From Methanoregula sp. (lineage in GTDB: Archaea; Halobacteriota; Methanomicrobia; Methanomicrobiales; Methanospirillaceae), in the NCBI GenBank assembly GCA_030651815.1, contig JAUSBW010000016.1:1-34410 (forward strand): DNA of 34,410 nucleotides, in the 5' to 3' direction. Below, piece by piece: positions 2,828-34,410 of this stretch. Under the pieces are notes generated by a model. It had not been told where the DNA came from. It did no database searches and saw nothing but the letters and a program-made list of their open reading frames with translations. The position numbers were made by a program, and so were the translations under genes. Each line of letters opens with the position of its first letter. Position 1 is the first letter of the stretch.

Positions 2828-4180
2828 TTACGGGATCGGGTACTTCTTCTTTCGCTCTTCTTTTGGATGTTCACTGTCTGCAGAGCCCACCATGTAATAG
2901 CGTTTGATGAAATCACGCACTTTCTCGGATTCAATCCAGCCCATATCCAGCTGCGTGATGATCCGGTCAATCTCCCGTGCCTGCAGAATGATCTTATCGG
3001 AGATATCACCGGGTGCAAGGCTCGAAAGGCCCATGATAACGGCAAGCGGGTTCCTGATATGGTCGCCAAGGATGGCAAACTGTTCGATGTTCTGCTCGAT
3101 CTGCTCGAGCGCTTCTCTCTTCACAATTTCCATCTGTTTGCGATCGGTGATATCGATGAACGACGCCATGATGCAGATCGGTTTTCCGGTCTTATCTTTT
3201 ACCATATTTATCCAGATAAGAACAAAAAAGGGCGATTTGTTATATTTTATCAGGGGGATCTCGCCAAACCAGCTGCCTTTTTTTGGCAGCATCTCACGGA
3301 TCTCGTCAAAAACCTGCCCTGAACCAAAAAACTGGCTGGAATGTTTCCCTATAAAATCCTGCTCATGAGTATACTCCATTATTCTCATGAGCGATTGATT
3401 TACGTAGGTGATATTGAAATCAAGGTCAAGGATTGCAATGGCGTTGATCGATGAGCTGATGGCATGATCCTTGATGAGCAGTGCCTGTTCAGCTTTTTTG
3501 CGGTCCGTGATATCTACAATAGTACAGACAAACTGTTTGTCGGTGAGTTTTCCTGCAGAGATAAGCTCCCACCGCTCCCCTTCAGTCCGCGACTTGAACC
3601 GTGTCTCAAGGCTCTCTACGTGTTCATGGAGGTTGAGCTGGTAAAAAAACGTATCTTTTGTTGTGGGATCCAGCCAGAGGTCAGCAAATGAGATCTTTGG
3701 GAGTTCTTCAGTAGTATACCCGAGCATCTCTGCAAACCGCTTGTTCACTTCTGTTATTGAGAGATCCGAACTGTTGACAAGACCAATACCCGCTTCAGAG
3801 TGGTTGAAGATTCCGCGATACTTCACTTCGTTCTTCCGCATGTGGGTTGCGAGACTCGATACAACAGCAGAAACGCCTATGAGGACAAAACATTTGATGG
3901 ACGAAGCGATTAGTTCCCCCATTGCGCCCTGAGTAAAATAGTATACTATTCCCATGTACGCAAGGGAGATTACCACGGCAAAGACCGGGCCACGGTTCGG
4001 GTACCAGTAGGCAGCGATAACTACCGGGATATAGAGCAGGAAAGGGGCGACATCATTGGAACCATAATTAAGGCTCAGGATATTGATCAGGAGGGCAAGG
4101 ATAGTCGTGTTGATAACAATAAAAAGCCAGAGATCAACAACACTCTCATCGCGCTCAACAAAAATATTCGTTCCCGTCAT
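2828..4180 (-). CDS. Membrane PAS sensor protein lacking a kinase ATPase domain
   Basis: The 450-residue protein has an N-terminal block of about four membrane segments (roughly 15-110, DUF4118/KdpD-like), then two PAS domains (about 118-228 and 238-346), each closed by the typical D-I-T-D-R-K segment. After a short coiled stretch comes ILGDHIRNPLAVI (about 370-382), which resembles a histidine-kinase H box with His374. The protein then ends within about 75 residues, and no N, G1 or G2 boxes of a HATPase domain are present. It therefore cannot autophosphorylate by itself. It may be phosphorylated by another kinase or signal through protein contact. It is a single gene running towards uvrB. 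Confidence 0.85.
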   Translation of the reverse strand: MTGTNIFVERDESVVDLWLFIVINTTILALLINILSLNYGSNDVAPFLLYIPVVIAAYWYPNRGPVFAVVISLAYMGIVYYFTQGAMGELIASSIKCFVLIGVSAVVSSLATHMRKNEVKYRGIFNHSEAGIGLVNSSDLSITEVNKRFAEMLGYTTEELPKISFADLWLDPTTKDTFFYQLNLHEHVESLETRFKSRTEGERWELISAGKLTDKQFVCTIVDITDRKKAEQALLIKDHAISSSINAIAILDLDFNITYVNQSLMRIMEYTHEQDFIGKHSSQFFGSGQVFDEIREMLPKKGSWFGEIPLIKYNKSPFFVLIWINMVKDKTGKPICIMASFIDITDRKQMEIVKREALEQIEQNIEQFAILGDHIRNPLAVIMGLSSLAPGDISDKIILQAREIDRIITQLDMGWIESEKVRDFIKRYYMVGSADSEHPKEERKKKYPIP

Positions 4181-15372: not shown

Positions 15373-15484
15373 CGAAATCGTGCCAATAGTTCTCAGTTGT
15401 ATTGAGCAATGGGAGAATCCTGCCAGATAACAACAACACTTAATACAACCCTGCATGTATCCATTGGATAAGGAATGTAAACCC

Positions 15485-17563
15485 ATGGCACGTCACCTTA
15501 TCTCCGAGGCAAAAGGGTATGAGATTTTACGGGAGATCGGCGTGCCGGTTCCCCGGTATGCACTTGCTACAAACATTACTGAGGCAATTGCTGCGGCCGA
15601 TAAAACGGGCTTTCCTTTAGTACTGAAAGTCGTCTCTCCCCAGATTGTCCATAAAAGTGATGCCGGCGGCGTCATTACCGGCATCCTCAACACTGAATTA
15701 CTGCTGGGGGCTTTTGACAAGATCCTCAGTAATGTCCGTAAATATGACCCGTCAGCAACGATCGACGGGATCATGGTCGGGCAGCAGCTCGAAAAGGGAC
15801 TGGAGATCATCATTGGCGGGAGGATCGATCCTGCGTTTGGAAAAGTGATCACCATCGGCATGGGAGGGACACTTGTCGAACTGATAAAAGACGTATCAAT
15901 ACGGGTACTCCCGGTCACTACTACCGATATCAATGCCATGCTCCATGAACTGAACGGGTACCAGCTGATCAAAGGGTTCCGCAACGAACCCCCCCGTGAC
16001 AGGGAAGCTCTCGTAAACCTCATCGATACCATTGCCCGTTTTTTTATGGATAGCGCTGAAATCGTTGAATTCGATATCAATCCGGTCTTTCTCTATGAGC
16101 ACGGGGTGTGCGCAGTGGATGCCCGGTTCTATACCGATGATACCCCCCGACCTGTAATATCAGAACCCGTCCGGCCACTACCCAAAGAACTGCTCCAGAT
16201 CAAATCCATCGCATTGATCGGCGCTTCTGCCGAACCCAATAAGGTAGGCTACGCAGTACTGCGCAATCTCCTCTCTTTTCCCGGCACCCTCTACCCGGTA
16301 AACCCGAAACACCCGGTGATCCTTGGCCGCACTACCTATCCTTCGCTTACTTCCATCCCAGGCCCGGTCGATGTTGCAGTCGTAGTTGTCCCGGCAGGAA
16401 TCGTCCCTTCGATAGTAGAAGAAGCAGGAAAGAAAGGGACACCCCTTGTAGTGATCATCTCTTCGGGATTCCGGGAGAGTGGTGCAGCGGGAAGCGAACT
16501 GGAAGCACGTGTCATTGCCTTTGCAAAACAATACAATATCCGCATTATGGGCCCCAACTGTCTGGGGTTCATGTTCCCGCACCAGAGTATCAATACCACC
16601 TTTGATCCCATCTCTCCAAAACCCGGAAACCTTGCCTTTTTATCCCAGAGCGGGGCGATCATCACCACGATGGTAGACTGGAGCCTGCCCGAAGAGATCG
16701 GGTTTTCTGAAGTGATCAGTGTCGGCAACCAGGCTGATCTCACCTTTGAAGACTACATCCTCTTTGCTGCCGATGATCCGAATACAAAAGCCATCATCCT
16801 CTATGTTGAGGAAATCCGCAAGGGCCGGCGCTTCATGGAAATTGTGCGGCAGGTAACGTCAGGAATGCCGGTGGTGGCAATAAAAGCCGGTTCCTCAAAA
16901 ATTGGCCAGATGACTGCTGCATCCCATACGGGTTCGCTTGCCGGCAGTTACGAAGTGTACCAGGCCGCCTTCTGGCAATCCGGAGTCATCCCTGTACGAT
17001 CGATGCGGGAGGCATTCCAGACCGCCGAACTTCTCTCATCGGAAGGTTATCCCAAAGGTATCCGTGCGATTGTGATCAGCAATGCCGGCGGCTTTGCTGT
17101 CATGTCTTCCGATTACGCAGAGATGATGGGTATTGAGATGGTGGAGTTTCCCCAGACGGTGATCAAAGAACTGGACTCCATCCTTCCCGTGGACTGGAAC
17201 CGGCGCAACCCTATCGACATGGTCGGTGATGCAAGCGCAGACCGGTTTGCGCGTACCTTTGATGTGATGATACGGAACCAGGAGCTCTGGGATATCGCAT
17301 TTGTGATCTCAGTGCCGTCGGCCATCTCCGATCCGATCCGCGTTGCAAACGAGCTGGTCCGGTTCTCAAAAAGCACGCAGAAGATGATCGTAGGGTGCAT
17401 GATCGGCGGCGATTCAATGAAGACACCCCTGCGGATATTAAGGGATTCCGGTATCCCCAACTTCCCGGATCTCGAAGACGCATTCAAGGCAGTAGGAAAT
17501 ATCTGCCGGCACATCTGCTGGGAAGAGTTCCACGGGCGCCGTTGCAGCACAGATGACCGGTAA
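15485..17563 (+). CDS. acd: ADP-forming acyl/acetyl-CoA synthetase, fused subunits with ATP-grasp domain first
   Basis: The enzyme interconverts acetyl-CoA (or another acyl-CoA), ADP and phosphate with the acid, CoA and ATP. The 692-residue chain carries an ATP-grasp (beta) domain first (about 1-220), then a CoA-binding Rossmann domain (about 235-330, with IALIGASAEPNKVGY) and succinyl-CoA-ligase-like domains to the end. ASHTGSLAGSYE around His481 matches the phosphohistidine segment of the family. Most described fusions have the order alpha then beta; here beta leads. I chose ATG 15485, preceded by AAGGA, over an upstream ATG at 15455 that lacks a ribosome-binding site. Substrate range cannot be read from the sequence. 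Confidence 0.9.
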   Translation: MARHLISEAKGYEILREIGVPVPRYALATNITEAIAAADKTGFPLVLKVVSPQIVHKSDAGGVITGILNTELLLGAFDKILSNVRKYDPSATIDGIMVGQQLEKGLEIIIGGRIDPAFGKVITIGMGGTLVELIKDVSIRVLPVTTTDINAMLHELNGYQLIKGFRNEPPRDREALVNLIDTIARFFMDSAEIVEFDINPVFLYEHGVCAVDARFYTDDTPRPVISEPVRPLPKELLQIKSIALIGASAEPNKVGYAVLRNLLSFPGTLYPVNPKHPVILGRTTYPSLTSIPGPVDVAVVVVPAGIVPSIVEEAGKKGTPLVVIISSGFRESGAAGSELEARVIAFAKQYNIRIMGPNCLGFMFPHQSINTTFDPISPKPGNLAFLSQSGAIITTMVDWSLPEEIGFSEVISVGNQADLTFEDYILFAADDPNTKAIILYVEEIRKGRRFMEIVRQVTSGMPVVAIKAGSSKIGQMTAASHTGSLAGSYEVYQAAFWQSGVIPVRSMREAFQTAELLSSEGYPKGIRAIVISNAGGFAVMSSDYAEMMGIEMVEFPQTVIKELDSILPVDWNRRNPIDMVGDASADRFARTFDVMIRNQELWDIAFVISVPSAISDPIRVANELVRFSKSTQKMIVGCMIGGDSMKTPLRILRDSGIPNFPDLEDAFKAVGNICRHICWEEFHGRRCSTDDR

Positions 17564-17580
17564 CGTACGACCCATCACAA

Positions 17581-19260
17581 TTACAGCGTGATCTTCTTTA
17601 AGATCTGCCCGTTCCGGAAGATGGTGATCACGCCGCCGCTCTGTGAGACCACGATACCCACTGTTTTGGTTACCTGCGTAATGGCGGCTACCGAGTTATG
17701 CCGCGTGCCCATCCCCCCGGGGAGTTTTACACTGCTCGTATCAACGGTAATATAGCGTCCCACTGATTCTACGAATCCATCCCCGGTGATGACAAATGCG
17801 CCATCGAGCTGGGCCAGCGCCTTGATATTTTCCTTGAGCTCCGGGTTCATGACAAGGCGGGCTTCGGGTTTGTGCCCTTCGAACGGGTTTAAGATGATCT
17901 GGCGGGACTTTTCCAGCACGTTTTTGGTATCGCCAATTAAAAATGTCGTACCTACCGGCTTTCCTTCCCTGCCCTCAATCGAGATCTCCGTGCAGATGTG
18001 AAAGACCGCATCAAAGACTTCTTCTTTTACATCGCTGTCTGCTATTACGAGATCCTTCCAGGTATCCGTGCTGATGCGCACCACGCCGTCCCGTTTCCGG
18101 TCCGTGATGTCGTGACCGATACAGAGAATCTCCACAATATGTCCCTTGTCGTCCCGGATGGCTTTGTTGATCCAGGCGATCCAGACCCGGTCACCGTTGC
18201 GACGGACATTTTCATTCACGTTGACTGCGTATCCTTCTGCATTGAAACCCAGATCATCTGCCATCATGGAGAGATCGTTACCGGAGCGGGTCTTTGCCGG
18301 AACGATCGTGCTGTTCACATTCTTTCCAATCACTTCATCGCTGGTATAATCAAAGAACGTGAGAGCGTAGTGATTGAAGAACGTAATCGTGCCCTGCATG
18401 TCCATCCGTATGATGATGCTCCGGGTATTCTGCACCACCTCCCGGTACTTTGCTTCGCTCTCCTTTAACATCCCGGCGATCTTCTGTTTTTCTGAAATAT
18501 CGGTTACTACAAACGTTCCGCCTTTACCAATGTCGCGGGTATCGAGAGGCTGTACCTGCAGCTGGCAGGCAAGAGTTTTTTTATCTTTTTTCATAAAAAG
18601 GCACCCGGCATGGGAAACCCCCTGAGCATCCCGTTTGAACTGCAGTTCACGGGAAAGGAGATCATACTCTTCGGGAGATGAGAGAAATGTTTTGAGATCT
18701 TTTCCCACCATCTGCGACTCTTCATAGCCGAGCATGGCAGGGAACTGGCGGTTCACCCATTCGATGATGCCATCGCGGGCCTGGAAGATGCCCAGCGGGG
18801 TTGCGGAGAGGATGGCGGCAAGCTGCTCATTCTGTGCCTTGATCTCGCGCTCGGATCTCTTGCGCAGCATGGTCTGTTTGATCAGGTTGACCATCTCAAA
18901 GACCTGCGGGCGGATGTCGCCGCTCTTTGGAAAAGTTATCTCGGTTCCATGGACAACTTCCATCACGGCAATCTTACCGGGCCCCCGCCTGCCAAGGAGG
19001 ATTACAGGGGTTACATTTCCCACGGATTTGAGATATTTGATGAACTCGATCCCGTTCATATCCGAGACAAATTCAATGCCGTTCACATCCGGCTGCTGCT
19101 CGTAGGAGACGATCGCATCGTAATTGCGTCCTTTGAGTTTTTCTATAGCCTGTTTTATGGAATGTGCATTATCGATCTTAATCTCCCCGGTCTTTTCTAA
19201 AAACGAATGCACCTGAGCAAGAAGATCAGTATTGTCATCAACAAACAAAACAGATATCAT
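17581..19260 (-). CDS. REC-PAS-PAS-diadenylate cyclase (DisA_N) fusion protein
   Basis: The 559-residue protein starts with a receiver-like domain (1-128). Asp8-Asp9 and Lys112 are present, but the phosphoacceptor position holds Tyr53 in IVSYEQQPD, and a nine-residue segment is duplicated (DVNGIEFVS / DMNGIEFIK, 58-75). Two PAS domains follow (about 145-258 and 268-390). The C-terminal part (about 405-559) matches the diadenylate cyclase (DAC/DisA_N) fold: LDGAFVITGDG supplies the DGA motif (486-488), and GTRHNSVAA (518-526) occupies the place of the RHR motif, with Asn instead of the last Arg. DAC domains make c-di-AMP from two ATP, as dimers. The variant motif leaves activity open. It converges on the CoA ligase with 17 bases between stops. 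Confidence 0.85.
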   Translation of the reverse strand: MISVLFVDDNTDLLAQVHSFLEKTGEIKIDNAHSIKQAIEKLKGRNYDAIVSYEQQPDVNGIEFVSDMNGIEFIKYLKSVGNVTPVILLGRRGPGKIAVMEVVHGTEITFPKSGDIRPQVFEMVNLIKQTMLRKRSEREIKAQNEQLAAILSATPLGIFQARDGIIEWVNRQFPAMLGYEESQMVGKDLKTFLSSPEEYDLLSRELQFKRDAQGVSHAGCLFMKKDKKTLACQLQVQPLDTRDIGKGGTFVVTDISEKQKIAGMLKESEAKYREVVQNTRSIIIRMDMQGTITFFNHYALTFFDYTSDEVIGKNVNSTIVPAKTRSGNDLSMMADDLGFNAEGYAVNVNENVRRNGDRVWIAWINKAIRDDKGHIVEILCIGHDITDRKRDGVVRISTDTWKDLVIADSDVKEEVFDAVFHICTEISIEGREGKPVGTTFLIGDTKNVLEKSRQIILNPFEGHKPEARLVMNPELKENIKALAQLDGAFVITGDGFVESVGRYITVDTSSVKLPGGMGTRHNSVAAITQVTKTVGIVVSQSGGVITIFRNGQILKKITL

Positions 19261-20019: not shown

Positions 20020-20364
20020 TTATTCCTCTGTAGTCTGGACAATCGCCAGCTGGTACATCCAGTCCATGAGCGGATGACATTCTTCGACAACACACTCCAG
20101 CTCACAGCCAATACAAGGAATTAATTCATCGCCTGCAAGCAGATCAGAGGGATTGACCGGCATCTGCCGTGCCCGCAGGAGGTAGGTCTTTATCCCGTCC
20201 TTTTTGAATTCGATCCGGTCGATTAGTTCGCCTTCTTCGAGTTTCTTGACAATGCGCGAACACTTCCGGCTATCAACACCCAGCTCTTTCCAGAGCTCGC
20301 TCTGAAGAACGCCTTCAGGTTTTGACTGAATCAGTTTTAATGCTTCATCAACAGGATCGTCCAC
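20020..20364 (-). CDS. Winged-helix protein with C-terminal four-cysteine cluster
   Basis: Residues 5-65 form a winged helix of the TFIIIC B-block/Lrp-like kind (QSELWKELGVDSRKCSRIVK, then KLEEGELIDR). The C-terminal part has Cys84, Cys87, Cys91 and Cys96 in a C-x2-C-x3-C-x4-C arrangement, which could bind an Fe-S cluster or zinc. A winged helix followed by a Cys cluster recalls archaeal relatives of RNA polymerase III subunit RPC34/hRPC39, but I cannot confirm membership. It lies 21 bases downstream of the Sm-like gene, so the pair are probably co-transcribed and could both act in RNA metabolism or transcription. Confidence 0.8.
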   Translation of the reverse strand: MDDPVDEALKLIQSKPEGVLQSELWKELGVDSRKCSRIVKKLEEGELIDRIEFKKDGIKTYLLRARQMPVNPSDLLAGDELIPCIGCELECVVEECHPLMDWMYQLAIVQTTEE

Positions 20365-20385: not shown

Positions 20386-20622
20386 TCAGATAAGCGGTGC
20401 TATGGTCAGGATATTGTTGCCCCGGATCACAACGGTTCCAAGGTTCCTGCCCCGCTGGTTATCTACAAACTCGATAGTCTCGTCCATGTGAATATTGAGA
20501 TACTCATCCACGGCTACGAGGCGGCCCTGCAGTTTCCTGCCTTCGTCTTTGATCTCTACGGATATTTTTGAATCCACAAGCGCAAACACTTTTTTTATCG
20601 GCAAAACAATTCCGTTAACCAT
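20386..20622 (-). CDS. Sm-like archaeal protein (SmAP/LSm)
   Basis: This is a 78-residue Sm-fold protein, expected to form a heptameric or hexameric RNA-binding ring. Sm1 covers about residues 11-44, with Asp39 and Asn43 in AVDEYLNIHM; Sm2 contains the hallmark IRGNNI (66-71). I chose the ATG at 20622, which gives the normal family length and is preceded by AGGG; the open frame continues 33 codons upstream without homology. It sits between the FBP aldolase/phosphatase gene and the winged-helix gene, all on the minus strand. Confidence 0.9.
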   Translation of the reverse strand: MVNGIVLPIKKVFALVDSKISVEIKDEGRKLQGRLVAVDEYLNIHMDETIEFVDNQRGRNLGTVVIRGNNILTIAPLI

Positions 20623-20733
20623 CTGCCCTAATTTAGGATGTAAGATAATTAAACCTTGCTCATTGTACGGTTCACGGGCACCCAACCAATCTGTGATCAA
20701 AGAGCGGCATCCAGGGAACAAAAAACAAACTTA

Positions 20734-21828
20734 TTAAGGAATTGCTTCCCAACGGCTGCGGAACTGTTTCTCGATCCCCGGTAAAGTGGTATATTCCATC
20801 TCTTCTAAGGAAAGCCTGTGAGGTTCAAAGGGACCCTGATCCCGTATCATATCAGCAAGTTCATTGCAGCGTGCCCTGACGCGGTCAAACCCGACATCAT
20901 CAAACATATCAGCAGGCCCGATAAGTTCGCCATTGCAGATCTGAAAACCCAGGCAGATGCACCGTGGCGGGCCATCAAACCGTGTCATATTGGCATCGCA
21001 GACACCGACCGGCATGAACGGACCATGATGCGATCCCCGCATCCATCCGGCAACTAATGTTGGGGTGCAGAAGGGCTCGATCACTTCTCCTACGGACGGA
21101 AGTCCGCTCTGCGCACGGACGATCATAACCGGATCATCCTTCCCGACATACCGGCCTGCAGTAAGGTTTAACTTTTCCGTGCTTGTCGATGCTGCAATCA
21201 AGCCATCCTTCCTATAGACATTCTTGATCACGTACCGGGAACATGCACCGATATAGGAGAGGAGGGTATAAGTCTCCTCAGGGGTCTTAAACCGGATGCG
21301 GCGCTTCTGGATGACATCGTGGACTTCAAAGATGAAGCCTTCGTGCATAGTGGGATCAATGACAAGGCCGGACGTGTTGAAGGGATCAGCAAAGATTTTG
21401 TAGAGAAAGAAGTTCCATGCACCGGGTTCGGTTTTATCGGCCATGAATATGAGAACAGGATCAGATCCCCGCTCTTCAAACTCCATCTCTGCAATGCCGG
21501 GTCCGAGGCCCCTGACATTTCCTGAGAATGCATTGGAGAGCATGTCCTGACCTGCCCCGTAGAGCTTCATACTCTTTGCAATTTTCGTACATTCCATAAA
21601 AACGTCCCACGCCAGCCTGTGGACGTTCTCATTATCCACACCATGGGCATGTGTCATGATCAACTCGATGTCATCGCCACAGTGGGTGACAAATGAATCA
21701 ATGAGGAGCTTGCCGCTCTGCTCCTTTAACATCTTTGCCGCTTTTTCCAAAAGTTTCGGGTGTGTGCGGGAGTGTCCGGGAAAACTTCCCACATCCGCTT
21801 TAATGACGGAAATCGTAGTTTTTGGCAT
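20734..21828 (-). CDS. Bifunctional fructose-1,6-bisphosphate aldolase/phosphatase (FBPA/P, class V FBPase)
   Basis: In archaea this one enzyme both condenses triose phosphates and dephosphorylates FBP, which makes gluconeogenesis one-way. The 364-residue protein keeps residues matching the studied enzymes: Asp12 in KADVGSFPGHS, Asp52-Asp53 and Gln94-Asp95 for metal and phosphate binding, Asp131-Lys132, and Tyr227/Lys230 in YVGKDD, where the Lys forms the Schiff base. The enzyme acts directly after tpiA's product. It lies downstream of the class II aldolase gene, 49 bases from its stop, and may be part of the same transcript. Confidence 0.95.
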   Translation of the reverse strand: MPKTTISVIKADVGSFPGHSRTHPKLLEKAAKMLKEQSGKLLIDSFVTHCGDDIELIMTHAHGVDNENVHRLAWDVFMECTKIAKSMKLYGAGQDMLSNAFSGNVRGLGPGIAEMEFEERGSDPVLIFMADKTEPGAWNFFLYKIFADPFNTSGLVIDPTMHEGFIFEVHDVIQKRRIRFKTPEETYTLLSYIGACSRYVIKNVYRKDGLIAASTSTEKLNLTAGRYVGKDDPVMIVRAQSGLPSVGEVIEPFCTPTLVAGWMRGSHHGPFMPVGVCDANMTRFDGPPRCICLGFQICNGELIGPADMFDDVGFDRVRARCNELADMIRDQGPFEPHRLSLEEMEYTTLPGIEKQFRSRWEAIP

Positions 21829-21877
21829 GAGAGATCACTGTATAGAATCTCTCTGCTATCTAAAAAAATGACGCTGA

Positions 21878-23020
21878 TTATTTGTTCATGGCCTTTCTGA
21901 CAAGAGATGCTGATCCATACGAACTGAACGCTTTGAAAAAGACGAGACTTTCCGCATAGGCCATTGCCCGGATTGCCTGTCCGGTATCTTCTTCTACGGA
22001 ATAGATCTCTTTGAAAAATTCCTTTATGGCGAATTTGCAGTTGCCGTCAAATACCTGTTTTTCTTTCTTCCCGGGATTTAAGGGAACGTATTTCTGAAGC
22101 GTCCATTCATGAATCGCCTTGTAGAGAGCGGGTTCATACACTTTTAAGATATTGAAAACTACATCCTGCCAGAAGGTACCGACATTTCCTTTTATGATAT
22201 CTCCTTTCGGGAAATGCTGGTTGATGAGATCACGGGGAGTGCCGGTGATCCCGTGCTGGGCAATACCGACATGCAGGTGATTATCCCGCAATGCTTTTGC
22301 AACCGCCCGGGTTTGGGAGATATCGATGGAGAGCTGTTCTACGATATTTCCTGCCCCATCGTACACATGCCCATGCGTGCTACCGTTGGCAATGGCAAGC
22401 ACCTGGGGATATACTCCGTTTTCCTGCAGGGCTTTGATGAATTCAACCGCTTCTTCAGGCTTTGTCAGGATCAGCCCGTGCCCGTCTTTCCTGCCGATCT
22501 CTCCCACCTCCACTTCGAGACCGAAATCCTTTCCCTTCATCCGGTTTTTGATGTAAAGGGCGAGATCCGTAGTAGCGAGGATATTCTTTTCCAGTTCTTC
22601 CCGGACATTTTTTCCTTCAAAATTAAAGAGATGGGAGGCATCAATGGCAAAGGACGTATACCCGGCAGCAATCTGGGCATCGATCAACTGTTTTGTCCCC
22701 TCAATCTCCGACGGATTGCCCGTCTTTATCGAGATATGATCTGCGTGAAGAGCCCAGATATCAAATTCTGCCGCCTTTGCAGCTTCGTTCATCTTTTCTG
22801 AGAATACCTGTGGCGTGAACCCGGTATACCCGCCATTTAAGTCGCATTCAGACCTCGCAAGTTCCATAAATACCGCAGAATCGGTATCTTTTGCGGCCCG
22901 GAAAATTCCCTGTGCGACCGTGGCAATCCGGATATTTGCAGCCATAATAATTGTTTTCTTTCCGGAAATGCTCCCCAGTATTGTTGAACCGGGGATTGGA
23001 CCAAAATTATTCTTCAGCAT
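21878..23020 (-). CDS. Class II fructose-bisphosphate aldolase-like protein
   Basis: This is a TIM-barrel protein with the metal site of class II aldolases: LHADH (91-95), a Glu in LEVEVGEIGRKDG (168-180), the ANGSTHGHVY segment (211-220, His216/218) and AQHGITGTP (254-262). At 380 residues it is longer than the usual 280-310, with a C-terminal helical extension of about 70 residues. It is translated 17 bases after class I FBPase, so the pair probably form an operon that makes fructose 6-phosphate by a route parallel to FBPA/P. Sugar-phosphate specificity is not certain; a related bisphosphate aldolase activity is possible. Confidence 0.8.
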   Translation of the reverse strand: MLKNNFGPIPGSTILGSISGKKTIIMAANIRIATVAQGIFRAAKDTDSAVFMELARSECDLNGGYTGFTPQVFSEKMNEAAKAAEFDIWALHADHISIKTGNPSEIEGTKQLIDAQIAAGYTSFAIDASHLFNFEGKNVREELEKNILATTDLALYIKNRMKGKDFGLEVEVGEIGRKDGHGLILTKPEEAVEFIKALQENGVYPQVLAIANGSTHGHVYDGAGNIVEQLSIDISQTRAVAKALRDNHLHVGIAQHGITGTPRDLINQHFPKGDIIKGNVGTFWQDVVFNILKVYEPALYKAIHEWTLQKYVPLNPGKKEKQVFDGNCKFAIKEFFKEIYSVEEDTGQAIRAMAYAESLVFFKAFSSYGSASLVRKAMNK

Positions 23021-23037
23021 AGAACTTCAATCCTGTT

Positions 23038-23946
23038 TCAGCACTCATCAAGCATAAACTTTTCAATCAGCCGGATCTCTTCTTTGCCACCAACATAGAT
23101 GGGTGTGACATCATCGATCCCTTCCGGTTTGATAGTCAGAATGTCGACTCGCCCATTGCTGATTGCCCCTCCGGCTTCATGGATGATCTTTCCTATGGGG
23201 TTTGCTTCATATAACAATCTTAGTTTTCCCTTTTCCCTTCCCTTAAAGCCGGGATAGGTGAATACACCCCCCTTATGGAGGATCTGGTGGACATCGGCAA
23301 CAAAACAGCCACTGAACCGGAGTTTATATCCTGAGTGTTCGAGTGTCTCAATCCACCGTGCGTGAGCAGGGAAGTAATCCCGCCTCAGGGCACCAGGTGC
23401 GTATATCTTTCCTTCCGGAATTTTTAGATCCTGGTGTCGTAAGAAAAATTCACCGGTTTCATCCAGTGCGAATTCATGTACACCCTCACCTGTGGTAAAT
23501 GTCAGGGTGGTCAGGGGGCCGTACAGGATATACATGGCAGCAATCATTGTCGCGCCCTTTTCAAGGACGTGACCGGGATAGATGCCGATGATGGAACCCG
23601 TGCAGAGGTTTACATCAATGAGGGACGATCCATCAAGAGGATCGATCACAATCCCGAAATTGTTCTTTGGATTCTCCACTTCAATGATCTTATGCTGTTC
23701 TTCAGTTGCGATATACCGGACAAGCCGGGCCTGCTGCAATCCTGAAATGAACACATTGTCTGCGTACATATCGAGAGCCATCTGCTCTTCGCCGTACATA
23801 TTTTTAGTCTGTTCATCTGCCGGGGTTTTCCTGATCGAACAGAAAAATCCTTTCTTCACCTGCTGAGCCTGTTTGCCCAAAAAGAGAATTAACTCCATTA
23901 AGTTTTTTTCTGTTCCTGCACGGACAAGGAAATCTTTGAGTATCAT
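23038..23946 (-). CDS. fbp: Fructose-1,6-bisphosphatase, class I
   Basis: This enzyme hydrolyses FBP to fructose 6-phosphate. The 302-residue protein shows the sugar-phosphatase signature [11 protein letters not shown] (101-111), acidic residues Glu53-Glu54 and Glu82-Glu83 for metal binding, and the conserved [11 protein letters not shown] and [19 protein letters not shown] blocks that form the substrate site. Class I FBPases are uncommon in archaea, where FBPA/P is the rule, so its presence with FBPA/P 1.2 kb away suggests acquisition by transfer. Together with the aldolase downstream it would complete a bacterial-style FBP route. Confidence 0.95.
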
Positions 23947-24446: not shown

Positions 24447-25421
24447 TCATTTTTTATTTTCCCCTTCTTCCTCGTGCTCACGTACCCGTGGCAGGATGAG
24501 GGCCTTATATTCTTCAAACTCCTCTTCCGTGATCAGCCCGCGCTCTTTTAAGGTTCCTACCCGCTCAAGCAGCGAAATCCCTGCTTCAGTCCCGTAATGA
24601 TTATAACGTATCTGCTCTTTCTGTCGTTCTTCCATAAACCCGGCAGCGAGAATTGCAGAGGGAAGTGCCAGGAGTAAGACGCCTCCAATCGTTACCATGC
24701 CGGTGATGGTCTGACCTAAAGGTGTGATGGGATAGATGTCACCGTACCCCACAGTAGTAACCGTCATCGCTGCCCACCACATGGCCGCCGGAATGCTGGA
24801 AAACTTGTCCGGCTGGGCAGCGTTCTCGACAAGGTACATAATCGTCGAGGAGAACAGTATCTCAAAGACCAGGAAAATTACGAGAAATGAGATGATCTCC
24901 CGCTTCTTGAAAACGACACGTTGCAGGAGTTGCAGTGCATCAGAATGGCGGGTGTAGCGCACCAGCTTGAAGATCGAGAGGAGCCGGAAGATGTGGAGCA
25001 TAGCATAGTCCTTTGGGAATACAAAAGGGAAGAGGATGGGGATGATCGATATGAGATCGATTATCATGTAGATTCCTGTGGCATAACGCAGGCGATCTTT
25101 TACCCTGCCTATGAAGGTGGGGTTCTGCGTACAAGACCAGAGCCGAAGGATATACTCGATTGCAAAAATTAAAAGACAGACCGAAATGATCGTAAAGAGC
25201 TGGCTGCAAAGCGAGAGCGGGAGATCTGTTATCGTGGAGATGACCACTGCGATTGTGTTGGCCAGAATAAAGATGGCAAGGAAATACTTCACTCCCAGTG
25301 CCGTCCGTTCCTCGTTTGGGTATGTGTTGAGGATCGTATTGACACGGCTTTTTATCCGGTCATAGCGGGATGTTTCCCCGATGATTTCCTGTGTTTGCTG
25401 TGCTGGATTCTCTGCCATCAT
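24447..25421 (-). CDS. Voltage-gated-type potassium channel
   Basis: The 324-residue protein has six membrane segments. The fourth (about 141-158, HIFRLLSIFKLVRYTRH) carries spaced Arg/Lys residues like a voltage sensor. The pore loop has the K+ filter TVGYGD (223-228), followed by the inner helix (about 240-262). The cytoplasmic end contains a SHOCT-like segment (LKERGLITEEEFEEYK, 291-306). No RCK/TrkA domain is present. It is probably a K+ efflux or equilibration channel in the cell membrane. c-di-AMP often controls K+ transporters in other organisms, which gives the DAC protein at 17581 some contextual interest. Confidence 0.92.
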   Translation of the reverse strand: MMAENPAQQTQEIIGETSRYDRIKSRVNTILNTYPNEERTALGVKYFLAIFILANTIAVVISTITDLPLSLCSQLFTIISVCLLIFAIEYILRLWSCTQNPTFIGRVKDRLRYATGIYMIIDLISIIPILFPFVFPKDYAMLHIFRLLSIFKLVRYTRHSDALQLLQRVVFKKREIISFLVIFLVFEILFSSTIMYLVENAAQPDKFSSIPAAMWWAAMTVTTVGYGDIYPITPLGQTITGMVTIGGVLLLALPSAILAAGFMEERQKEQIRYNHYGTEAGISLLERVGTLKERGLITEEEFEEYKALILPRVREHEEEGENKK

Positions 25422-31360: not shown

Positions 31361-31562
31361 TTGAAATGCATCGTCTGCGAAGGACCGAATGATCTTATTT
31401 TTTTTGATGAACTTGTTAAACACCACTTTAAAAAAAAAGGGCTTTCCTGTTCATAATAATTTGAGTGATTTCAATGATATATTTCATTCGAAGGCTCATC
31501 CTTTTTATAAAGAAGGATATGGATGTGTAATATTTCCGACATTCGGCAGATCTTTTTTCAAT
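31361..31562 (+). pseudogene. TOPRIM-like partner gene, frameshifted and cut by an IS
   Basis: Starting at TTG 31361, two bases after the ATPase stop and behind GGGGGA, the frame reads MKCIVCEGPNDLIFFDELVK, like the first strand and Glu of a TOPRIM nuclease. A run of nine A (31430-31438) shifts the frame: with eight A it would continue as GFPVHNNLSDFNDIFHSK through CVIFPTFGRS. As written, a stop occurs at 31454. The restored frame then runs into the IS1634-type element near 31563 and ends. The gene is therefore inactive here; its original length and exact family (for example DUF4435 or DUF3226) are unknown. Confidence 0.65.
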
Positions 31563-33162
31563 TATAGTATTTATTGAAGGGCGCACCGAGAAGATTGACG
31601 ATATCCTGTGATTCCACTCCAAAGTTCAGCAAAGTGCAAACAGTTTTACCGTCAATAATTTCGTGAATCTGTCTCACTCTGCGGAAGAAGAAGAAAACAC
31701 GTTTCATAGTAGGTTTGTTAGTCGGACGATTCTTCTGATTTCGAACGAATGCATTTTGTTCTTTGAGAACCTGTCGGAATTGCCATTCAGCAACAGAATA
31801 CACCAGCAGACATAGCACCATCAGCATTGACAGTGCCGCGATTCGAGATTCATTTTTAAGATATACCTCGGACACATGAAAGCTCTGGTCTTTAATAAAC
31901 CTGAATCCCCGTTCTACGGTCATCTGCTCTTTATAGTACTCGAGCATCACTTCATGATTGATATTCGTGTCATTACTTGCAAGGATGAATCTGCCGAGCA
32001 ATTCTTTCTCTCTGGCAACAAATTCAGAATTTATCTCCAGTTTACATGAAACCTTGTACACTATCTTAACGGGCTCGTCCGGACTCGGACGTCCTCTTTT
32101 TGGTAATATTTTCTGCTTTCCTTTTGTGATGACCAGATCCTGAATGACATAGCGTGGATGTTTCTCCAGCCAGCGTTGAGTAATCGCCAGTGCATCCGCT
32201 TCACATGCAAATCCCTTTACATGCATTTTTTTCAGGGCAGTCCGGTCTTTTTTATGATGACTTTTAACCTTTTTTGCGAACTTTTCTTCGCGATTTTTCT
32301 GTTGCTCTATCGAATGAAACATGATCCACGTCTGATCAATATTGCCGTATGAACTCGCATGTGCAAAATAAGTGTACCGGGTATCAGTACATGGTGTCCA
32401 GTAGACGTCCTGTTTACAGAGGATTTTTGCTTCTTTTATTGTCTCCGGTACATGACTGATCCAAAAGCAGTGTTGACCGAGGGTTGAGATATTGTGATTA
32501 GTATAAAATGCAGAATCTGCCATATGGTAAATGATATCATCCGTAATCAGGTTCGCTCTGACCGCTTGGATTGACTGAAGAAGGCTCTTTTTATCTGATA
32601 CGTTTCCCGACAGTGGTTCCATGAACACAGGAATTCCGTGCTGGGTTGTTACCAGGGAGATTATGAACTGTTTGAGATCGTTTCGAAGATCTTTAGAGTG
32701 CCCACGCACTATTCGTATCATCCGTGTGTGGAAGTCTGAATCATATTCTCCGGTGACGCTGATTGATGTGGTATCATGATGGAGACGCAAAGTGCCGAGT
32801 GGCATCTTTTTCATCATGTTGGTGACGATGCCTGTGAATAGTCGAGTGGGTCCATACGCAGCCATGGCGTCAAGTGCCTCTCCAAACAGATATTCGTTCA
32901 GATGCTCTGGTTTTATGCCCTCTCCGAGCAATCGTTCAACTGCTATATCCTCAAAAAATTCGGGCATGACATAAAGTCGGCGTTCAGTGAATCCAAGTCC
33001 ATTTAGGGTCAAGGCTTTTACTGCGGTGCCGTGGGAAACATTATGATGCCGTGTTTTCGGTATAACTTGATCGATATATTCTCCGATCCCTAGTTTATCG
33101 AACATTCCCGCTACTATACCGAGATGTCCTACAGTTACATTTGTGCCTTCTATCAGCGACAT
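31558..33162 (-). CDS. IS1634 family transposase (IS4-group DDE)
   Basis: The 534-residue transposase has an N-terminal DUF4277-like region (about 1-110) and a DDE catalytic core: Asp130 in HHDTTSISV, Asp216 in MADSAFYT and Glu417 in TVERGFRFIKD, with a beta-strand-rich insertion between the second Asp and the Glu. The length is normal and there are no internal stops, so it may be active. Its TGA at 31558-31560 lies at the element boundary. Expression runs leftward, opposite to the ATPase operon. Confidence 0.93.
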   Translation of the reverse strand: MSLIEGTNVTVGHLGIVAGMFDKLGIGEYIDQVIPKTRHHNVSHGTAVKALTLNGLGFTERRLYVMPEFFEDIAVERLLGEGIKPEHLNEYLFGEALDAMAAYGPTRLFTGIVTNMMKKMPLGTLRLHHDTTSISVTGEYDSDFHTRMIRIVRGHSKDLRNDLKQFIISLVTTQHGIPVFMEPLSGNVSDKKSLLQSIQAVRANLITDDIIYHMADSAFYTNHNISTLGQHCFWISHVPETIKEAKILCKQDVYWTPCTDTRYTYFAHASSYGNIDQTWIMFHSIEQQKNREEKFAKKVKSHHKKDRTALKKMHVKGFACEADALAITQRWLEKHPRYVIQDLVITKGKQKILPKRGRPSPDEPVKIVYKVSCKLEINSEFVAREKELLGRFILASNDTNINHEVMLEYYKEQMTVERGFRFIKDQSFHVSEVYLKNESRIAALSMLMVLCLLVYSVAEWQFRQVLKEQNAFVRNQKNRPTNKPTMKRVFFFFRRVRQIHEIIDGKTVCTLLNFGVESQDIVNLLGAPFNKYYN

Positions 33163-33213
33163 AAGCCCAATAACAATTTAGTCGTACTAAGTTATATAGG
33201 TATGTACTATATA
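31560..33213 (-). mobile_element. IS1634-type insertion sequence (approximate limits)
   Basis: The transposase gene is flanked by AT-rich ends. TATAGTA near 31563-31569 and TACTATA near 33205-33211 are inverted and mark the likely termini, with weaker pairing further in. The stop codons of both neighbours (the TOPRIM-like frame and the reverse transcriptase frame) fall within these ends, so the IS truncates both. I could not identify a clear target-site duplication. Confidence 0.6.
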
Positions 33214-34410
33214 ATTAAAAAATGGTTGATTTTTACTGCCGAAGGTCGGCTGGTCACAGAATCACCATGTCTTTCGCTGAAGTATTCTCGGTCGAGAAAG
33301 GGATTTCTTTTCAGTTGAACCAGAACATGTCTTCTGATTTTCGTATCAGAGAATCGTATAAGGGTGGATGCAAAGGTTGTGAACATCCAGTTCGAGTTAT
33401 CGACTGAATGCCAGTACCTTTGAGCGATCCATCGGTGCCCTTTATCCGGGTGCCGTCTTTTAGCCCATTGCCAGAGGAGTTCCCACACAGCGTGATCCAG
33501 ACTGCTAAATGTTTTAGCGGATACAACATTGCAATGGTAGAGAGACCAGCCCCGGATTACCGGGTTCAGTTTGTCTATCAGGACTTTCTGGCTCGCGCTC
33601 TTTGAACGACTGATGATATCGCTAATTTTGCGGGTTATGGTTGACACCGCCTTTTTCGATGGTTTTATCAGAAGTTTTCCGCTGTATTTCCGGAAGTTCC
33701 AGGACAGGAAATCAAATCCTTCGTCGATATGGACGATTTTAGTTTTCTCTTCCGAAAGTGAGAGCCCTCGTTCTGCGAGGAACCCTTCAACAGCGGCTTT
33801 TACTTGTTCTGCAACTTCCCGTGATTCTGCGGTAATCACCCAATCGTCAGCATACCGGACAAGGTTCACCTTTTTGTTCTTGAACTGATTCGTCAGGAGA
33901 GTTTTCATCCCGTCAAGAGTCAGATTCGCCAGTATAGGAGAGATGATGCCACCTTGGGCTGTTCCCATGATTGTGCTGTGATACACTCCTTCATAGAGAT
34001 AGCCGGCTTTGAGAAATTCCGCAAGGACTTTCTTGTCCATAGGGATGTTCTCAAGGAGCCATTCATGCGGGATGTTGTCAAAACAACCACGGATATCTCC
34101 TTCCAGAACGTATGAGGCGGAATTATCCTTACTCAGGCATATGAAAAGATACGCGGCTGCATCCTGTGCGCATCTCTTGAGCCTGAACCCAAGCGACGTT
34201 ATGTCAGCCGTTGTTTCTGCCCACGGTTGAAGAGCCAGAACGTAAAGTGCCTGCATTGCTCTGTCATAGAACGTTGGGATGGACAACGGTCGCATTTTGC
34301 CGGAATTGGATTTCGGGATATAGATTCTTGCCAGTGGTTGAGCCTTGTATCCTTTGTCCGTGAGTGAGAGGACTGCTCTCATCCGTTCTTCGGCAGTTTT
34401 CCATCTGACT
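33207..34410 (-). CDS. ltrA: Group II intron reverse transcriptase/maturase, partial at both ends
   Basis: The frame is open through the right window edge, so the N-terminus is missing. It contains RT blocks: ARIYIPKSNSGKMRPLSIPT, GDIRGCFDNIPHEWLL, GTAQGGIISPILANL and the catalytic RYADDWVI, then a maturase (X) region with NPVIRGWSLYH. Near the left end, NPFLDREYFSERHGDS is followed by a tail that ends at TAG 33207-33209 inside the IS end. The usual position for a C-terminal HNH domain and the intron's domain V/VI RNA are missing on this side, so the intron is probably dead, although the RT core is intact. Confidence 0.85.
   Translation of the reverse strand, partial: VRWKTAEERMRAVLSLTDKGYKAQPLARIYIPKSNSGKMRPLSIPTFYDRAMQALYVLALQPWAETTADITSLGFRLKRCAQDAAAYLFICLSKDNSASYVLEGDIRGCFDNIPHEWLLENIPMDKKVLAEFLKAGYLYEGVYHSTIMGTAQGGIISPILANLTLDGMKTLLTNQFKNKKVNLVRYADDWVITAESREVAEQVKAAVEGFLAERGLSLSEEKTKIVHIDEGFDFLSWNFRKYSGKLLIKPSKKAVSTITRKISDIISRSKSASQKVLIDKLNPVIRGWSLYHCNVVSAKTFSSLDHAVWELLWQWAKRRHPDKGHRWIAQRYWHSVDNSNWMFTTFASTLIRFSDTKIRRHVLVQLKRNPFLDREYFSERHGDSVTSRPSAVKINHFLII

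Follow-up and report, generated by a model that had tools for sequence, protein, structure and literature searches.

A predicted PAS-linked diadenylate cyclase with a pseudo-receiver, the only DAC detected in its Methanoregula genome

The REC-PAS-PAS-DAC gene and its neighbourhood

The window, i.e., the whole stretch of 34,410 nucleotides of Methanoregula DNA that was analysed, harbors at positions 17,581–19,260 of the minus strand an intact open reading frame, starting with ATG and free of internal stop codons, which encodes a protein of 559 amino acids (P0001) composed of a receiver, two PAS domains and a diadenylate cyclase (DAC) domain. The receiver-like domain (residues 4–93; 18,982–19,251, minus strand, as all the following parts of the gene) is matched by Pfam Response_reg with an E-value of 9.5e-10 and lacks the phospho-acceptor Asp, the position of which was found by the alignment of 68 REC domains to be occupied by Tyr53 (codon 19,102–19,104). 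PAS domain 1 spans residues ~145–262 (18,475–18,828; Pfam PAS_8 at residues 145–201) and PAS domain 2 residues 271–385 (18,106–18,450; Pfam PAS at the same residues), and the tandem is also matched in two stretches by Pfam PAS_9 (E 3.9e-23). The C-terminal part is a DAC region of the DacZ superfamily (residues 401–559; 17,584–18,060), delimited by NF041371 and profile matches, within which the Pfam DAC domain PF02457 covers residues 427–552 (17,605–17,982). The DGA motif is located at residues 486–488 (17,797–17,805), and an RHN motif is found at residues 520–522 (17,695–17,703), in the position of RHR. The preliminary description of this DNA, which named no strand, was correct in its motif positions and in placing a degenerate receiver and two PAS domains ahead of a DAC domain. 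A 2023 survey of DAC architectures by Galperin, which reportedly distinguishes 22 families, probably includes the REC-PAS-DAC type. Within the receiver, a near-repeat, NGIEFVSDMNGIEF, is present at residues 60–73 (19,042–19,083, minus strand), and its length is constant across the genus. A search of a plasmid collection with P0001 retrieved partial matches of the PAS type only.

Directly upstream of the DAC gene, the genes are arranged in the order FBPase, FBP aldolase, FBPase_3, Lsm and winged helix. The winged-helix protein (20,020–20,364), recognised by Pfam and synteny, and the Lsm/Sm-like protein (20,386–20,721; PF01423, E 1.3e-17) are conserved neighbours, and the FBPase_3, FBP aldolase and FBPase genes (20,734–23,946) form a gluconeogenic cluster upstream of them, all on the minus strand. 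On the other side, an ADP-forming acyl-CoA synthetase-like gene (15,455–17,563, plus strand) converges with the DAC gene. The upstream cluster together with the convergent downstream gene is found in nearly all the Methanoregula loci of sufficient length and recurs in a second genus (g15, locus L173); two loci, L109 and L110, also have FBPase, Lsm and winged-helix genes next to a far more distant REC-PAS-DAC gene, and in another one (L120) the DAC gene lies near those for FBPase and aldolase. In the loci compared, these neighbours are absent beside the DacZ-type genes of other families. This conserved gene position suggests that the DAC gene may be linked to sugar-phosphate metabolism.

A voltage-gated potassium-channel-like gene (24,447–25,421, minus strand; Ion_trans, E 1e-27) is located near the cluster, with a match to NF040645 that stays under the cut-off (E 3e-10). 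At the contig end, a DUF4277/DDE transposase adjoins a group II intron reverse transcriptase/maturase (31,558–34,382, minus strand). The host genome also encodes possible partners of P0001, namely two TrkH proteins, a Na+/H+ antiporter-RCK protein, a TrkA and an RCK channel, which are the usual types of c-di-AMP targets, along with a TrkA_N-DHH-DHHA1 protein as a candidate phosphodiesterase; since these families are common, their presence is weak support for P0001 as a c-di-AMP synthase.

The DAC domain: identity, catalytic residues and occurrence

The DAC domain of P0001 reaches 64.4 bits on PF02457 (gathering cut-off 27; E 8.9e-18). The NCBIfam DacZ model NF041371 aligns residues 377–555 with positions 85–263 of its 270 (E 9e-32); the alignment covers the catalytic two thirds of DacZ but not the DacZ N-terminal domain, and the score of 110 bits is far under the equivalog cut-off of 430 bits, which refers to the full 270 amino acids. 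At the sequence level the DAC match is far above chance, and it is kept throughout the genus. An AlphaFold2 model built with 45 homologs has a mean pLDDT of 83.5, with values of about 90 across the DAC domain and over most of PAS domain 1, and its pTM of 0.48 leaves the arrangement of the domains undefined; a model of the DAC region obtained from the single sequence was set aside (pLDDT 33). When the full model was compared with the PDB by Foldseek, the top 50 matches were PAS proteins only, with no DAC fold among them, so that the identity of the DAC domain stands on sequence profiles. A profile of 13 DAC regions headed by that of P0001 matches crystal-structure sequences, those of CdaA at E 3e-12 and those of DisA at E 3e-4.

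The catalytic motifs were compared in 183 archaeal and bacterial DAC domains, which were collected by similarity to the family of P0001 and therefore speak for the DacZ superfamily, not for every DAC. The Asp of DGA (Asp486 in P0001) and the His of position 521 are invariant (183/183 in both cases), and position 520 is occupied by Arg in 181 domains and by Lys in two; at position 522, Asn (40), Ala (35), Ser (32), Arg (17), Met (17), Val (13), Leu (10) and other residues are found. Since Arg occurs there in 17 domains out of 183, the full RHR motif does not define the DacZ superfamily. RHM is present in all of the eight haloarchaeal DACs sampled, four of which were scored and all lie above the DacZ equivalog cut-off; judging from this class, H. 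volcanii DacZ presumably carries RHM as well. It is known that haloarchaeal DacZ synthesises c-di-AMP both in vitro and in vivo (PMC6741144).

P0001 possesses Asp486, Arg520 and His521, but not the complete RHR motif. The Asn in the third position might be taken as the mark of a dead or very weak domain, acting as an ATP/c-di-AMP receptor by binding only, and the replacement of RHR by AAA does abolish the activity of M. tuberculosis DacA (PMC3328451) and of B. thuringiensis CdaS (PMC4568413). However, these mutants had lost all three residues and are therefore silent on the third one alone, whereas P0001 keeps the first Arg and the His; a residue-by-residue test of the third position was not found in the literature, where the published mutants are whole-motif AAA. 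Moreover, the third position varies among the 183 homologs, haloarchaeal DacZ and the sole DACs of many genomes included, and no further DAC that might supply such a receptor with c-di-AMP was found in the host genome. A role by binding only appears, on these grounds, quite unlikely. The idea, put forward in the preliminary description, that RHN marks a low-activity or binding-only version does not agree with the conservation of Asp486, Arg520 and His521 and with the scarcity of Arg at position 522. Since the Asp, Arg and His are kept, the third position is variable and haloarchaeal DacZ has RHM, RHN is no indicator of a dead enzyme, and it was ruled out as such by the survey of the 183 domains. 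The textbook RHR motif is thus unfit for calling archaeal DACs inactive, and P0001 is probably, as far as its residues tell, an active diadenylate cyclase. No measured activity of any REC-PAS-DAC protein was found in the literature.

Comparison with named genomes places the host in Methanoregula (91% identity to 'Methanomicrobiales archaeon' bins and 65–74% to named Methanoregula). Its genome, in 285 contigs, is 99.9% complete with 3.1% contamination, and P0001 is the only DAC that the PF02457 and NF041371 searches detected in it. Given that neither search disclosed a second, canonical DAC in this assembly, the situation envisaged in the preliminary description, i.e., a canonical DacZ in the genome beside a family universally devoid of ATP-binding residues, is not the one found here. 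Orthologs of P0001 (559–624 amino acids, all with GTRHN) are present in 20 of 20 near-complete Methanoregula genomes, counting those that have a completeness of 90% or more and in which the DAC loci were read; in 16 of them the ortholog is the only DAC, and the remaining four hold one or two more. Some Methanoregula possess, as second or third DACs, PKD-membrane-DAC proteins of about 500–517 amino acids (L040, L062 and L071), the PKD of one of which (L062) was confirmed by Pfam.

Phylogeny of the DAC domain and domain fusions

In a tree of 124 DAC domains, obtained by a quick search and without bootstraps, the archaeal domains fall into a DacZ-type clade (SH-aLRT 88) and a sensor clade (SH-aLRT 93). 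The latter is made up of sequences of the Methanoregulaceae and Methanospirillaceae, of a few further Methanomicrobiales and of a single member of the Methanoperedenaceae, and the modules placed in front of its DAC domains include REC-PAS-PAS, PKD with a membrane segment, TPR and TrkH. A single DAC, of the DacZ type, is present in the remaining large families of Methanomicrobiales (f2, f4, f5 and f6). A loss of DacZ in all the Methanoregulaceae was considered and rejected: proteins of the DacZ clade are encoded in three genomes (L191, L192 and L226, in G236, G366 and G427, respectively), so that the sensor clade, which diversified in the Methanoregulaceae and related groups, has replaced DacZ there largely rather than completely. 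Some genomes hold from two to four DACs.

A protein of 266 amino acids (L038, from genome G029) is DacZ-like by its N-terminus, yet its DAC domain branches inside the sensor clade. Another protein from the Methanoregulaceae (L205, from G354; 339 amino acids) has a very divergent DAC with the stretch ARHIFAAAIT and a branch length of 2.0. In three of the 199 Methanomicrobiales genomes searched, a TrkH K+ transporter carries an in-frame C-terminal DAC domain, without stop codons (TrkH, E 3e-45; DAC, E 8.5e-18); the copies are located at L112:1277-3475, L247 (733 amino acids), L248 and L063/L249:1693-3753, and one of them leaves the contig end. Such a fusion would place c-di-AMP synthesis on a K+ transporter, and the archaeal classes DacV or DacW may already include fusions of this kind.

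Possible control of the cyclase and comparison with known systems

With Tyr53, P0001 does not have the phospho-acceptor Asp of two-component response regulators. The same holds for the whole class: Asp is found at this position in none of 68 REC-PAS-DAC proteins, Tyr in 45 of them and Cys, His, Pro, Phe, Gly, Arg or Leu in others, and judging from these sequences the fused receiver is a pseudo-receiver throughout. The N-terminal Response_reg match and the existence within the window of a PAS histidine-kinase-like gene (2828–4180, minus strand) might suggest a two-component output, in which a histidine kinase would phosphorylate the receiver and turn the cyclase on. The product of that gene has two PAS domains and matches HisKA weakly, under the cut-off, and no ATPase domain was found in it. 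Since the phospho-acceptor Asp is missing from 68 of 68 proteins, a classical phosphorelay is unlikely, and a cyclase switched on by a kinase in this way must be regarded as very improbable. A PAS input to the cyclase is more plausible than receiver phosphorylation.

Among 31 orthologs from the genus, conservation is highest in the DAC domain, with 83% identity in the pairwise mean and 85 of 159 columns invariant, followed by PAS domain 2 (80%; 48/125), the receiver (70%), the linker (59%) and PAS domain 1 (56%), the least conserved of the domains. The poor conservation of PAS domain 1 and of the linker would also fit a constitutive cyclase, in which the PAS domains and the receiver would serve for dimerisation or localisation only, with no sensing of a ligand, and no cofactor motif is common to all the orthologs: position 328 of PAS domain 2, aligned with the His of the FixL RSRHD motif, holds His in 23 of the 31 and Asn in the other eight, P0001 among them. 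On the other hand, PAS domain 2 is conserved almost like the DAC domain, and the sensor clade has repeatedly swapped its front modules (REC-PAS, PKD, TPR and TrkH), which is in agreement with regulated inputs; a constitutive enzyme is therefore unlikely. The His of the RSRHD motif is presumably the haem ligand of FixL, and PAS domain 2 might be of the haem type in most orthologs, which is to be taken as a lead; near position 328 the AlphaFold2 model of P0001 is poorly resolved (residues 324–327 below 50). By Foldseek, the fold of the two PAS domains is similar to those of FixL and DosP, a likeness that is uninformative on the ligand because the PAS fold is common.

Overall, we consider that P0001 is a competent sole c-di-AMP synthase, a PAS-gated DAC with a pseudo-receiver acting by dimer geometry, with a probability of roughly three in four. 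In detail, we infer that two DAC domains would be paired face to face and make c-di-AMP from two ATP, and that the PAS domains, on sensing a ligand, a cofactor or a partner, would alter the geometry of the dimer and thereby the output; the receiver, closed to classical phosphorylation, would probably be an assembly or protein-interaction surface. The signal-dependent synthesis of c-di-AMP proposed in the preliminary description is accordingly plausible for a predicted DAC behind two PAS domains. A broader scenario is far more tentative and in our opinion rather doubtful: in the Methanoregulaceae, an ancestral DacZ would for the most part have given way to sensor-fused DACs that radiated there, and Methanoregula would produce all its c-di-AMP via one soluble PAS-gated enzyme responding perhaps to a redox, gas or metabolite signal tied to gluconeogenic flux, as the conserved FBPase/aldolase neighbourhood might indicate, with PAS domain 2 being maybe of the haem type. 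As a Methanoregula genome usually encodes one soluble synthase with two PAS domains, the control of archaeal c-di-AMP synthesis is directly testable in this genus.

As for known systems, the archaeal classes DacV, DacW and DacX, following Corrigan and Gruendling 2013, are listed in PMC6741144, where the representative of DacX is Methanoregula boonei A7I8S2; the earlier statement that the described archaeal synthases are all short and of the DacZ type is incomplete in view of this listing. Since an ortholog occurs in every near-complete Methanoregula genome read (20/20), P0001 is very probably DacX, an assignment made by genus-wide presence; P0001 and the representative A7I8S2 share the genus. 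In terms of that listing, P0001 would be a member of an already named archaeal class. No biochemistry on DacV, DacW or DacX, and no experimental paper on DacX, was found in the literature. DacZ/CdaZ (DacY; H. volcanii DacZ and M. jannaschii CdaZ) has in common with P0001 the DAC superfamily, the catalytic Asp and the RH pair; however, DacZ is about 270 amino acids long and has a PK_C-like N-terminal domain where P0001 has REC-PAS-PAS, and its clade is the sister of the separate DAC clade (SH-aLRT 93) of P0001. The crystal sequences of CdaA/DacA and DisA align with the C-terminal half of the P0001 DAC domain, DGA and RH included. Unlike these enzymes, P0001 has neither a membrane segment nor the DisA linker or HhH domain, the third residue of its RHR motif is not Arg, and the N-terminal half of its DAC domain is divergent.
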